From Actinomycetes bacterium (GTDB lineage Bacteria; Actinomycetota; Acidimicrobiia; Acidimicrobiales; RAAP-2), in the NCBI GenBank assembly GCA_021779855.1, contig JAJXZW010000006.1:40226-104225 (forward strand): 64,000 bases of DNA, in the 5' to 3' direction. The position numbers and the translations under genes are program-made. The notes below the pieces were generated by a model, which had not been told where the DNA came from, did not search any database, and saw nothing but the letters and a program-made list of their open reading frames with translations. Numbering within the stretch: position 1 is the stretch's first letter; each line of letters opens with the position of its first letter. Below are positions 7,672 to 26,559 of this stretch, piece after piece.

Positions 7672-8909
7672 GCGATCCCCCGCGCCACGTCGGGGCGCCG
7701 CTGGCAGCCCGCGAAGTCGACCCGGCCCGCACCCTCGTAGGCGCGCGCGCGCGCCGTGGCGAGGTCGTGGCCCGTCCCGGTCACCGCGAGCACCCGGCCG
7801 CCGGCGGTGACGAAGCGGCCCGCGGCGTCGCGCGCGGTGCCCGCGTGGAAGACGACGACCCCCTCGAGCGGCTCGGACAGCTGGCCGTCCTCGCCCAGGC
7901 CCTCGATGACGTCGCCCGAGCGCGGCCCCTCGGGGTAGCCGGCCGCCGCCAGCACGACCGTGACGGCCGCGCCCGCGGGCCGCGGCACCGCGGCGAGCCG
8001 GCCCGCCGCGGCCGAGGCCAGCAGGTCGACGAGCCCCTCGCGGTAGAGGGGGGCGAGGACCTCGGCCTCGGGGTCGCCGAAGCGCACGTTGTACTCGATG
8101 AGCTGGGGGCCGTCGTCGGTGAGCATCATCCCGGCGTAGAGGACGCCCCGGTAGTCGACGCCGCGCCGGCGCAGCTCGGCGACCGTCGGGGCGATGACCG
8201 CCTCGTCGATCGAGGCCAGCGTCGCGGCGTCCAGGCGTTCGACCGGCGCGTAGGCGCCCATGCCCCCGGTGTTGGGCCCGCGGTCGCCCTCGGCGAGCCG
8301 CTTGTAGTCCTGGGCGACGGCGAGGGTCGCGAAGCGCTCGCCGTCACAGAGCACGTGGACCGAGCACTCCTCGCCGACGAGCCCCTCTTCGATCACGAGG
8401 CGCCGTCCGGCCTCGCCGAAGGGGCGCCCCGAGAGCTTCTCGCGCGCGTCGGCGATCGCCGCCTCGAGCGAGTCGGTGACGAGCACGCCCTTGCCGGCGG
8501 CGAGCCCGTCGGTCTTGACGACGTAGGGCGGGCGGGCGCCGCGCAGGCGGGCCTCGGCCGCCTCGGGGGTGTCGACGGTGGCGTAGTCGGCGCTCGGCAC
8601 GCCGGCCGCCGCGAGGAACGCCTTCAGGTGGGCCTTGGACCCCTCGAGGCGGGCCCCGTCGGCGCCGGGGCCGAGGACGGCGACGCCGGCGGCGCGCAGC
8701 TCGTCGGCCAGTCCCTCGACGAGGGGCGCCTCGGGGCCGACCACGACGAGGTCGGCGTCGAGCTCTGCGGCCGGTCGGTCGCTCACCGCGAGGCCGTGGG
8801 CGGCGATCCCGGCGTTGCCCGGGGTCACGACGACCTCGGCGCCCCCCGCGAGCGCCCAGGCCAGGGCGTGCTCGCGCGCGCCGCGCCCGACGACCACGCA
8901 GCGGGTCAC
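7668..8909 (-). CDS. purD: Phosphoribosylamine--glycine ligase
   Basis: GTG start: [22 protein letters not shown]-grasp features ([24 protein letters not shown]). Confidence 0.94.
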
Positions 8910-10183
8910 TCGTTCACCACGAACTGCTCGCGCTCCGGCCCCACCCCGACCAGGCGGATCGGCACCCCGACCTCGGCCTCGAGGAAGGCCACGTACTCGA
9001 GGGCCGCCGGGGGCATCGACTCGCGGCTCGTCACCCCCGAGAGCTCGCTGCGCCACCCCTCGAGCGTCTCGTAGACCGGCACGGCGTCGTGCAGGGCCGA
9101 CTGGTGGAAGGGCATGTGGTCGTAGCGCACACCGTCGACCTCGTAGGCGACGCAGACCTTGATCTCGTCGAACTTGTCGAGCACGTCGAGCTTGGTGAGG
9201 GCGATCTCGGTGAGCGAGTTGAGGCGCACGGCCTGACGGGCCATCACCGCGTCGAACCAGCCGACCCGGCGCCGGCGCCCGGTGTTGGTGCCGAACTCGT
9301 GGCCCGTCTCGACGAGGTAGTCACCCGTCTCCCCGCCGATCTCGGTCGGGAACGGCCCGGCGCCCACGCGGGTCACGTAGGCCTTGGCGATCCCCACGAT
9401 CGAGGTGAGGTCGCGCGGGCCGAGGCCCGAGCCGACGCAGGCCCCCCCGGCCACCGGGTTCGACGAGGTGACGAAGGGGTACGTCCCGTGGTCGAGGTCG
9501 AGGAAGGTAGCCTGAGCGCCCTCGAGGAGGATGCGCCGGCCCGCCGCGAGGGCGTCGTGGACGAGGCCGACCGAGTCGCCGATCATGGGGGCCAGGCGGG
9601 GCGCGAACTCCTCGAGGTAGCGCGCGGCGATCTCCTCGGCCTTGAGGGCCGGGCGGTTGTAGACCTTGGTGAGGATGGGGTTCTTCTCGCCGAGGGCCAC
9701 CTCGAGCTTCTGGCGGAAGATCTTCGGATCGAGCAGGTCCTGGACGCGCAGGCCCACCCGGGCGGCCTTGTCGGCGTAGGCCGGCCCGATGCCGCGCTTG
9801 GTGGTGCCGAGGGCGTTCTTGCCCAGGTAGCGCTCGGTCAGCCGGTCGAGCTCTTGGTGGTAGGGCATGATCAGATGGGCGTTGCCGCTGAGCACCAGGC
9901 GCGAGACGTCGACGCCCTTGCTCGCCAGGCGGTCGAGCTCCTCTAGGAGAACGGCCGGGTCGACGACGACCCCGTTGCCGATCACCGTCGTGATGTGGGG
10001 GTAGAGGATCCCCGAGGGCACGAGCTGCAGGGCGTACTCCTCGCCCCCGACGACGATGCGGTGCCCGGCGTTGTGGCCGCCCTGGTAGCGCACCACGAGG
10101 TCCATCTCCCGGGCCAGGAGGTCGGTCAGCTTGCCCTTGCCCTCGTCACCCCACTGGATGCCGACTACCACGGTTGCGGGCAC
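8906..10183 (-). CDS. purA: Adenylosuccinate synthetase
   Basis: [38 protein letters not shown]-type motif; full-length. Confidence 0.94.
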
Positions 10184-10247
10184 AGCCTCTCCCTCGGTCG
10201 CTGTCCCTCTACGGGCCAAGCCTACCGGGCCCGCCCGGGTCTGGGAG

Positions 10248-10497
10248 AAGGTGAGGACCCCCTCGAGCGCGTCGACGCGAATCGTGTCGCCCTCGGTGTA
10301 GACGCCCTCGAGCACCGCCAGCGCGAGCGGGTCCTCGAGCCGGCGCTGGATGACCCGCTTCAAGGGACGCGCTCCGAAGTCGGGGTCGTAGCCCTCCTCG
10401 GCGAGCACCGCGCGCGCGGCGTCGGTGACGACCAGGGCCAGGCGGCGCTCGGCGAGGCGGGCGCGCAGCCGCTCGAGCTGGATGCCGACGATCACCG
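10248..10497 (-). pseudogene. Detached duplicate of the clpB 3' end (no start, no N-terminal part); left copy of a 250 bp direct repeat
   Basis: By-eye alignment to 12364..12613 (offset 2116) gives 247/250 identical; translation [83 protein letters not shown] is identical in both copies. Confidence 0.93.
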
Positions 10498-10607
10498 GAA
10501 GGTCCACGCGTGAGCACGTGCCTGGGTCATACCTCGACGCACCCCAACGTGGGACCGCCGGGGCCGGGCACGGGTTGCTGCGACCCGCCCCTCGGGCTAA
10601 TGACCGT

Positions 10608-11396
10608 CTAGAAGGCTGAGCACACGTTCCCCAGGTTGGTCCACGGGGAGCCTGTGCCCTTCCAATCGTTCCCGTTCCACACATTGGAGGCGTTCACCTG
10701 CATTCCCACGATGTAGGTGTTCCCCTGAAGCTGATCTTGGTTCACGCCGTTCAGCCCCGCCGAGCCCACAGAGCATGATTGCGCTCCCGCACCGTCAGAG
10801 CTCAACTCGACATGACCGTAAAAGGCAGGGGACGAGTTGTAGAACGACGTACACGCTCCGCCGGACCCGTTGATCGTGCAAGGGTACGTGCACTGAGTGC
10901 CGTACGAGGAACCGCCCCCCACCGACCCGCAGGTCGTACCTGTTCCTGGCGAAGCAGATGTGCTGACCTATCGGTTCGTCGCCAGCGCCGCACCCGACGA
11001 ACCCGCGGAGTCAATTGGGCAATTCAAGGTCATGGCGAACCCGTCCGCGGCGGACGTCCCGACACCAGCTGCTTTCGCTAGGGAACTCGGGACGCTGAGC
11101 GGCTGAAAGGACACAACGGGGCACACCGATCCGTTCCAGGTGGCAGTCTTCACTCCCCCTTGGAGCGCACCATTCCAGACGGTCGCGTAGTCGCTCCACT
11201 GCGTGGCCGCCGCCGACGCGCCGGGAGCCGGCGGTGTCGCCTGATTGAGAACGATTTCCAGGGGTGGGCTCACCGAGGTCTGCGCCCCGGCCGGCGCCAT
11301 GTTTGTGCCCACGATGACCAGCGCACCGGCCAGCGTGATGGCCCCACCGATCAACTTCGACCACATTCCCCAGTCCTTTATCCTCATGGTCCACAC
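10608..11396 (-). pseudogene. Secreted Cys/Gly/Ser-rich protein of unknown function interrupted by one in-frame TAG (10968..10970)
   Basis: ORFs 10968..11396 and 10608..10922 are in the same frame. N-terminal signal peptide (GGAITLAGALVIVGTNMAPAGAQ). Reading through the amber gives ...GAALATNR*VSTSASPGTGTTCGSVGGGSSYGTQCTYPCTINGSGG...NVCSAF. Confidence 0.6.
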
Positions 11397-11448
11397 CTTC
11401 CGTTGCGCCGAGCGAGCCCCCGCGGAGTCCCCCCGTAATAGTCGGAAC

Positions 11449-11460
11449 TCGATATATCGA
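11449..11460. promoter_or_regulatory. Perfect palindrome TCGATATATCGA in the divergent PadR/secreted-protein intergenic region; candidate PadR operator
   Basis: Sequence directly visible between the divergent starts at 11396 and 11513. Confidence 0.45.
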
Positions 11461-11512
11461 AACCGTAGTACTTCGGGTGTACGATGTCAAGGGCGCGGGT
11501 GCCGCGCCAGGG

Positions 11513-11836
11513 ATGGCGACCCACGAGGACCCCGGTGTGAAGCAAGTCTTTCTCGACCGCAAACTGCTCGTCCTGGTCAGCCTGCTAACGGGCCCCAAGC
11601 ACGGGTACGCCCTGATGAAGGACATCGAGGCGTCTTTTGCCGTCCGTCTCGGGCCCGGAACCCTCTACGCGTGTGTCGGCTCTCTCGAGAAGGAGGGGCT
11701 CGTGGAGGCTATGCCGTCGGTCGACCGACGTCATCCCTATCGGATTACACCGAGAGGAGATCTCGAAGTACGCCGAGCGATCGCCGAGGTGGCTCGCGTC
11801 ACCTCTGTCGCCCTCACACGAGTCTCAGCCACCTGA
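11513..11836 (+). CDS. PadR-family transcriptional regulator
   Basis: LLVLVSLLTGPKHGYALMKDIEASFAVRLGPGTLYACVGSLEKEGLVEAMPSVDRRHPYRITPRG; canonical PadR winged helix. Confidence 0.88.
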   Translation: MATHEDPGVKQVFLDRKLLVLVSLLTGPKHGYALMKDIEASFAVRLGPGTLYACVGSLEKEGLVEAMPSVDRRHPYRITPRGDLEVRRAIAEVARVTSVALTRVSAT

Positions 11837-11847
11837 TCGGACTGCTC

Positions 11848-12342
11848 GTGGCGGACGTGACCCCTCGACTGCGCATCCGGATCGTCCGCGCACTCGTGTC
11901 CGCGTTTCCCGGGGACGTCGCTCGCAGTTATCGAAGGAACGTCCTGCAGCTAGCAATGGACCTCGAGGATCGCCACGAGCTCCGTTGGAGTGACGTGGCC
12001 GGATGTGTCGTCGGTGGCCTGAGCCTTTACCCCCGCGTCATCTTCCGAGCGGTGCTAGCCGGTTCGATGGCTGTGGTGGCGTCGGTGGCCTTCGTCACGT
12101 TGTCGCCAACGCCCTCGACGTCGACTCGCACCACGTACGCCGCGGGGCCAGCGATCGTCGCGTACTCGTTCCGCACAGTCCAGTCGGGGGTGCAGAGGTC
12201 AACGGGCGTGTGCTACGCGGTACGCGGCCCGACGACGATTGAGCTGTTCGCCGTCGCACACCCATCGGATCACCCTCGAGTGTTTTCTATGCGCGGGACG
12301 TGTGCGCCGCGCCGCGCCGAGGGAGCGCGGACAAAGAACTGA
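11848..12342 (+). CDS. Small membrane protein downstream of PadR, unknown function
   Basis: GTG start: ADVTPRLRIRIVRALVSAFPGDVARSYRRNVLQLAMDLEDRHELRW... followed by hydrophobic AVLAGSMAVVASVAFVTL segment. Confidence 0.55.
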   Translation: MADVTPRLRIRIVRALVSAFPGDVARSYRRNVLQLAMDLEDRHELRWSDVAGCVVGGLSLYPRVIFRAVLAGSMAVVASVAFVTLSPTPSTSTRTTYAAGPAIVAYSFRTVQSGVQRSTGVCYAVRGPTTIELFAVAHPSDHPRVFSMRGTCAPRRAEGARTKN

Positions 12343-12356
12343 CGGGTCTCACCGAC

Positions 12357-14846
12357 TCATGAAAAGGTGAGGACCCCCTCGAGCGCGTCGACGCGAATCG
12401 TGTCGCCCTCGGTGTAGACGCCCTCGAGCACCGCGAGCGCGAGCGGGTCCTCGAGCCGGCGCTGGATGACCCGCTTCAAGGGACGCGCGCCGAAGTCGGG
12501 GTCGTAGCCCTCCTCGGCGAGCACCGCGCGCGCGGCGTCGGTGACGACCAGGGCGAGGCGGCGCTCGGCGAGGCGGGCGCGCAGCCGCTCGAGCTGGATG
12601 CCGACGATCACCGCCAGGTCCTCGCGCCCGAGCGCGCGGAACCGGACGATCTCGTCGATGCGGTTCACGAACTCGGGCCTAAAGACGCTCAGGGGGTCGC
12701 CCGAGAGGTTGCTCGTCATGATGAGGACGGCGTTGGTGAAGTCCACCGTGCGGCCCTGTCCGTCGGTCAGCCGGCCGTCGTCGAGGACCTGCAGGAGGAG
12801 GTTGAACACGTCGGGGTGGGCCTTCTCCACCTCGTCGAGCAGCACCACGGCGTAGGGGCGCCGCCGCAGCGCCTCGGTGAGCTGGCCCCCCTCCTCGTAG
12901 CCGACGTAGCCCGGGGGCGCCCCGACGAGCCGGCTGACGGCGAACTTCTCCATGTACTCGCTCATGTCGATGCGCACCATGGCGTGCTCGTCGTCGAAGA
13001 GGAACTCGGCGAGAGCCCGCGCCAGCTCGGTCTTGCCCACGCCGGTCGGGCCGAGGAAGAGGAACGAGCCGATCGGCCGGTTCGGGTCCGCCAGGCCGGC
13101 GCGACTGCGCCGGATGGCGTTGGCGACGGCTGCGACGGCCTCGTCCTGGCCGACGACCCGGCTGTGGAGGAGCTCCTCCATGCGCACGAGCTTGTCGACC
13201 TCGCCCTCGAGGAGCTTGGCGACGGGCACCCCCGTCCAGCGGCTCACGACCTCGGCGACGTCCTCGGCGTCGACCTCCTCCTTCAGGAGGGCGCCGGTGC
13301 GCTGGAGGTCGGCCAGCTCGGCGGTGGCGCGCTCGATGGTGCGCTCGACCTCGGGGACCACGCCGTAGCGCAGCTTGGCCGCACCCTCGAGGTCGCCCTG
13401 GCGCTCGAGGCGCTCGGCCTCGGCCCGACGGTCCTCCAGGTCCTGCTTGGCGGCGCGGATGCGCTCGATGGCCCCCTTCTCCGCCTGCCAGCGCGCGGCG
13501 ATCTCGTCGCCGCGCTCCTTCAGCTCGGCGTACTCGGCCTCGAGCCGGCCGAGCCGCTCGCGGCTGGCCTCGTCGGTCTCCTTCTCGAGGGCGAGGCGCT
13601 CGATGTCGAGCTGGCGCTGGCGCCGCACGACGACGTCGAGCTCGGTCGGCATCGAGTCGATCTCGATGCGCAGGCGCGAGGCGGCCTCGTCCATGAGGTC
13701 GATCGCCTTGTCCGGCAGGAACCGGTTGGTCACGTAGCGGTGCGAGAGCGTGGCCGCGGCGACGAGGGCGGCGTCCTGGATGCGCACGCCGTGGTGGACC
13801 TCGTAGCGCTCCTTCAGCCCACGCAGGATCGCGATGGTGTCGGCGACCGTGGGCTCGCCCACCACGACCGGCTGGAAGCGCCGCTCGAGGGCCGCGTCCT
13901 TCTCCACGTGCTGGCGGTACTCGTCGAGGGTCGTCGCCCCGATCAGGCGTAGCTCGCCCCGGGCGAGCAGGGGCTTGATCATGTTCGAGGCGTCCATCGC
14001 CCCCTCGCTCGCCCCGGCGCCCACGATGGTGTGCAGCTCGTCGACGAAGGTGATTACCCGGCCCTCGGCCTCGCGGATCTCGGCCAGCACCGCCTTCAGG
14101 CGCTCCTCGAACTCCCCGCGGTACTTCGCCCCGGCGATCATCGAGCCGAGGTCGAGGGCGACCAGGCGCCGGTCGCGCAGGCTCTCGGGCACGTCGCCCT
14201 CGACGATGCGCAGGGCCAGCCCCTCGACGATCGCGGTCTTGCCGACGCCGGGCTCGCCGATGAGGACGGGGTTGTTCTTCGTCCGCCGACTCAGCACCTG
14301 GATGACCCGGCGGATCTCCTCGTCGCGTCCGATGACCGGGTCGAGCTTGCCGGCCCGGGCGAGGGCCGTGAGGTCGCGGCCGTACTTCTCGAGGCTCTGG
14401 AAGGTCGTCTCGGGGTTCTCGCTGGTGATCCGGGCCGAGCCGCGGATCTGGCGCAGGGCTCCGAGCAGCGCCTCGCGGCTCGTGCCCAGCTCGTCGGCCG
14501 CGGCCACGATCACGTGGTCGACCGAGAGGTACTCGTCGGACATCTCGGCGCGCAGGGCGTCGGCCGACTCGAGCAGTCGGCGGCTCTCGGCCGAGAGCCC
14601 CGGCTGGGTGCCGCCGACGGCACGCGGCTCGCGCGCCACGCGATCGTTGAGCTGCGCCGTGACGGCGACCGGGTCGAGCTCGGCCGCGACGAGCAGGGGC
14701 CGTGCCACACCGTCGGCCTGGTTGAGGAGCGCGAGCAGCAGGTGGGCGGGGGTCACCGAGGGGTGGCCGGCGGCGGCGGCCTGAGTGGAGGCAGCCTGGA
14801 AGGCCTCACGGGTCTTCACGGTCCAGCGCTGGGGGTCGAGGGTCAC
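12357..14846 (-). CDS. clpB: ATP-dependent disaggregase ClpB
   Basis: 829 aa; Clp-N domain, two Walker A motifs ([27 protein letters not shown]), GYVGYEEGG pore loop. Confidence 0.95.
12364..12613. repeat. Right copy of the 250 bp direct repeat (functional clpB 3' end)
   Basis: See 10248..10497; three mismatches. Confidence 0.93.
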
Positions 14847-26485: not shown

Positions 26486-26559
26486 GCGGGTGTAGTTCAG
26501 CGGCAGAACATCAGCTTCCCAAGCTGAGAACGCGGGTTCGATTCCCGTCGCCCGCTCCA
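26486..26559 (+). tRNA. tRNA-Gly (anticodon CCC), CCA encoded
   Basis: GCGGGTG TA GTTC AGCGGCA GAAC A TCAGC TTCCCAA GCTGA GAAC GCGGG TTCGATT CCCGT CGCCCGC T CCA folds as a cloverleaf. Confidence 0.95.

Follow-up and report, generated by a model that had tools for sequence, protein, structure and literature searches.

The 64,000-nucleotide stretch of DNA analysed here (the window) comes from a genome of 2.06 Mb in 51 contigs (G000). It contains the end of the chaperone gene clpB twice, with a small set of genes of foreign composition between the two copies. How did these genes come to lie between clpB and purA, and why would the end of clpB be repeated on their far side? The islet is acquired, and we lean towards describing it as a recombinase-less, CIME-like (cis-mobilizable) integrative islet. 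The main comparisons are with homologous islets at the same place in two related genomes, G033 and G153, and with an element of a third, G063, that carries the same three genes. The features of the locus are collected in Table 1.

Table 1. Features at the clpB–purA junction, in window coordinates.
Feature	Position	Strand	Remarks
purA	8906..10183	-	core gene downstream of clpB
TAGGCT	10219..10224	-	conserved -10-like hexamer, ~41 nt upstream of the purA start
Repeat copy 2	10248..10497	-	displaced clpB end; stop codon lost; joined to the ancestral clpB–purA spacer
Islet	10498..12356	.	GC mostly 0.62–0.67 vs ~0.68–0.81 around it; GC3 0.71–0.77 vs 0.97 in clpB and purA
Secreted protein, Cys-rich second part	10608..10967	-	91–93% identical to G033
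Secreted protein, first part	10968..11396	-	N-terminus resembles a signal peptide (by eye); terminated by an in-frame TAG
PadR-family regulator	11513..11836	+	PF03551, E 2e-11
Small membrane protein	11848..12342	+	47–49% identity to its homologues in G153 and G033; no Pfam/NCBIfam match
clpB, intact	12357..14846	-
Repeat copy 1	12364..12613	-	end of intact clpB

The duplicated clpB end and its cargo

An alignment confirmed the direct repeat reported in the earlier note: the two copies match over 250 nt in the same orientation, at a spacing of 2116, with three mismatches (CTC/CTG, GGC/GGA and CTC/CTG). All three are synonymous, as compared with the ~28% expected for randomly placed changes (p ~0.02). 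A weaker match extends the repeat to 10245–10510 and 12361–12626 (97%), and the 13 nt that it adds on the islet side have a chance probability of ~0.003. No second repeat resembling this pair was found in the 64-kb window. A tRNA-type att site was considered and rejected, the sole tRNA of the window being located at 26486.

From the synonymous mismatches it had been proposed that both copies evolved as functional clpB ends, probably in different genomes. This proposal is not sustained, as both copies belong to the lineage of the window's host. In the tree, the changes fall on the purA-side copy (branch of 0.012 vs 0). Its stop codon has become CAG at a position where relatives with an empty site show TAG or TAA, and it is therefore no working gene end now. 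Since this copy abuts the spacer that follows clpB in the empty-site relatives, it marks the original position. The second clpB end came at most from a very close relative, or else gene conversion has homogenised the two. The last codons of the intact clpB are TTT TCA TGA where relatives have TTC TCC TAG/TAA; both encode Phe-Ser-stop.

The displaced end sits just upstream of the TAGGCT hexamer. Nearly all of the congeners checked have TAGGCT or TAGACT ~40 nt before the start of purA, even where the DNA further upstream is not clpB, and the hexamer is likely a part of the purA promoter. If it has this role, the duplication would protect both neighbours.

The PadR regulator, membrane protein and secreted Cys-rich protein of the islet match the first description, with one difference: the secreted protein is divided between two ORFs of one frame. 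The stop between them is TAG in G000 (window 10968–10970) and in G153 (L135 8457–8459), while G033 has TAA plus a frame change (L036 6743–6751). In G000 there is no ATG, GTG or TTG near the beginning of the second part; readthrough or re-initiation is possible from the sequence. The Cys-rich second part is under strong constraint, with dN/dS of 0.02–0.09 overall and 0.02–0.04 in comparisons with G000. In G153 (L135 8493–8834), two of its cysteines are replaced by Trp and Tyr, and these two may pair as a disulfide in the other homologues. The structure predicted for the Cys-rich protein has a mean pLDDT of 39. Neither the membrane protein nor the secreted protein was assigned to a family in Pfam or NCBIfam scans, and PHROG matches were weak. 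As a guess, the trio may constitute a sensed, regulated secreted factor.

As noted before, the islet holds no recombinase: inspection of its ORFs together with Pfam/NCBIfam scans revealed no genes for integration, transfer or mobilisation, and the islets of G033 and G153 likewise lack a recombinase. A search of the non-coding ends for integrase or Rep remnants gave no similarity to the element sequences compared. Homologues of the cargo were absent from IMG/VR and from plasmids; in a scan of GTDB genomes they were found in G033, G153 and G063 only.

The same junction in related genomes

Empty sites, which the earlier note had suggested looking for, are the usual state of the clpB–purA junction among the congeners examined. 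The gap between the two genes is 54–69 bp in the 14 congeners measured, and in G002, G030, G035 and G063 the flank matches overlap, indicating an empty site of the same kind. G033 and G153 contain homologous islets, each accompanied by a displaced clpB end of its own, 37 nt long in G033 (86% identity) and ~150 nt long, with amino-acid changes, in G153. If the promoter role of the hexamer is right, the 37 nt in G033 would be the part that is still needed. In frame continuation into purA after loss of the stop was observed for the displaced ends of G000 (CAG; window 10184–10250) and G153 (TCG; L135 ~9100–9310).

In all three genomes, cargo of foreign composition follows directly on the clpB stop, between the intact end and the displaced copy. 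The three also agree in the position of the clpB-side junction and in having a split secreted gene. An assembly artefact, which would have undone the observation, is unlikely because two further MAGs share the architecture, with repeat copies that have diverged. Apart from the homologous islets, the spacer holds unrelated genes in G028 (Fic motif HPFKDGNGR; L043) and G013 (a membrane-protein gene), and these are not accompanied by clpB-end repeats. Such genes lend something to the idea that the repeat is an in-situ duplication or a large target-site duplication into which unrelated accessory DNA was pasted by chance repair; however, the recurrence of the same cargo, the same junction and a clpB-end duplication in three genomes makes it highly improbable.

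A further question is whether the three islets descend from one insertion. In the host tree built from clpB and purA, G000 and G153 are sisters (100/99), and the same genes reject a grouping of the three islet-bearing genomes as a clade (AU p 2e-53). Across clpB and purA, dS among the three genomes is 0.18–0.32. Between G000 and G153, dS is 0.92–1.54 in the islet versus 0.18–0.23 in clpB/purA; the codon bias of the core genes (GC3 of 0.97 versus 0.71–0.85) inflates this ratio, though not the order of the distances. That order contradicts the host tree, as the closest islets are those of G153 and G033 (0.52–0.64, with 0.95–1.58 for G000 and G033). The identity of G000 to G153 is 87–97% in clpB, 50–58% in the islet and 93–96% on the purA side, with a sharp break at the junction. 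The repeat copies pair by genome, and grouping them by position is rejected (AU p 0.005 and 0.01). Because gene conversion could likewise make copies pair by genome, the islet distances bear the most weight. An islet quartet tree with G063 as outgroup gave an AU p of 0.26, the sequences being saturated.

These data suggest repeated acquisition at one site as opposed to one inherited insertion, and the clpB site probably received different versions of the islet on at least two occasions. A single old insertion, passed on vertically with its repeats kept alike by gene conversion and cleanly lost through repeat recombination in G032, G001 and G004, would account for the common clpB-side junction and the split secreted gene in all three genomes. 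On the islet side, moreover, similarity runs on past the near-identical tract, which is the pattern expected of a conversion tract. On the other hand, it requires several clean losses and an islet evolving several-fold faster on the G000 branch, it conflicts with the islet distances when these are set against the host tree, and the second secreted ORF has no sign of relaxed selection. We consider such a history quite unlikely.

Integrase-bearing elements in the genus

The same trio was found in G063 within a 5.5-kb element that encodes a tyrosine integrase (PF00589) and RepSA (PF20199, E 2e-88); no tra gene was recognised in it. The element is flanked by a duplicated 3' end of an acyl-CoA dehydrogenase gene (acd; 76 nt, 83%), the integrase adjoins the intact acd end, and the secreted protein is intact at 276 aa. 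Relative to its target gene, the trio is oriented opposite to that of the clpB islet; thus the clpB islet is not simply the G063 element minus some parts.

Integrases of the same family lie directly beside acd in 11 congeners, G000 included, and displaced acd ends were identified in six genomes (G063, G010, G014, G081, G000 and G153). The acd-end element of G000 (L163 639–9177, C12) is ~8.4 kb in length and contains an integrase; its acd-end copies match at 59/60 nt, and an excisionase-like HTH protein and an MFS-type transporter were recognised by eye. In G153 (L164 13355–14431), a ~1-kb segment between two acd-end copies has no integrase and lies beside an integrase element. It encodes a toxin-antitoxin-like pair, with ribbon-helix-helix-like and Doc-like ORFs by eye. 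From the acd elements and this segment, it follows that elements which rebuild gene ends and integrase-less derivatives are both present in the genus. Their link to the clpB islet is suggested by the common cargo and architecture. Genome G000 gave no RepSA match. A tRNA gene lies close to many of the other RepSA loci in the genus, which is usual for elements of the RepSA type (PMC3218068).

The earlier note had taken the islet for an element that integrates into the 3' end of a gene and supplies a replacement end. Acquisition and the regenerated gene end stand, with the G063 element as the strongest support, whereas site-specific recombination at clpB itself is a step that we infer. In the proposed mechanism, a donor form of the islet would carry clpB-end sequence and recombine with the chromosomal clpB end. 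The most likely agent would be a tyrosine integrase, either supplied in trans or lost afterwards. One side of the insertion would then restore the clpB ORF, and the other would retain the old end, which abuts the likely purA promoter, so that neither neighbour is harmed.

Besides the opposite orientation of the trio in G063, the following counts against this mechanism. The 250-bp repeat exceeds the usual length of an att core, and no clpB-targeting integrase was found in a survey of the clpB-end copies in the genus and of the acd-type integrase family. No resident element able to mobilise the islet in cis was seen at clpB. The clpB end had no match in IMG/VR, and at record level its matches to phages (95 records) and plasmids (146 records) were weak, at <60% identity except for one plasmid record.

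The absence of a recombinase from all three islets also suits an integrase-free route, in which the clpB end of a near-identical strain, together with the islet on a circle or fragment, entered by a single crossover within the clpB end or by homology-facilitated illegitimate recombination. The repeat copies share 98.8% identity and both belong to the lineage of the host, and 250 bp is enough homology for RecA. This route is nevertheless unlikely, given that the G033 repeat is just 37 nt (though it may have eroded) and that the same gene-end architecture is served by an integrase at acd in the genus. A wider claim would be that a non-autonomous islet is transferred among species, entering the 3' end of one protein gene with no recombinase of its own, using a host-like gene end as its address and relying on an integrase in trans or on host recombination alone; this is possible, but we hold it tentatively.

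Known elements and significance

Prophage e14 of E. coli replaces a long 3' segment of icd and leaves a displaced copy behind; it differs from the islet in having its own integrase. Under the reading that we favour, the islet is closest to CIMEs, which have lost the genes for integration and transfer and kept attL and attR (PMC5704250). Like these, it has cargo without such genes, flanked by copies of the target-gene end; its repeats are candidate att sites, and no mobilising element was found at clpB. As for an origin from an ICE or IME, the trio does occur in the int/RepSA element of G063, but at another gene and in the opposite orientation. IMEs that use the 3' ends of housekeeping genes are known (PMC5704250), and the islet differs from them in lacking an integrase and a mobilisation gene. 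Through the integrase and RepSA of G063, the cargo trio also has a homologue on an element resembling AICEs of the pSAM2/RepSA type (PMC3218068), although int, rep and tra are missing from the islet. Among AICEs, those with a tyrosine integrase integrate mostly into tRNA genes (PMC3218068), whereas the targets here are the 3' ends of protein genes.

With these comparisons in mind, small integrase-less accessory islets, which appear in annotation as unexplained gene content, are linked to integrase/RepSA elements that rebuild the ends of protein genes. Cargo that recombinase-based element finders miss can be searched for by its signature, an intact gene with a duplicate of its 3' end beside it. 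The end of a conserved chaperone gene may serve as a safe landing site, and the suggested reason is that the end of the ORF and the likely promoter region of its neighbour are both kept.
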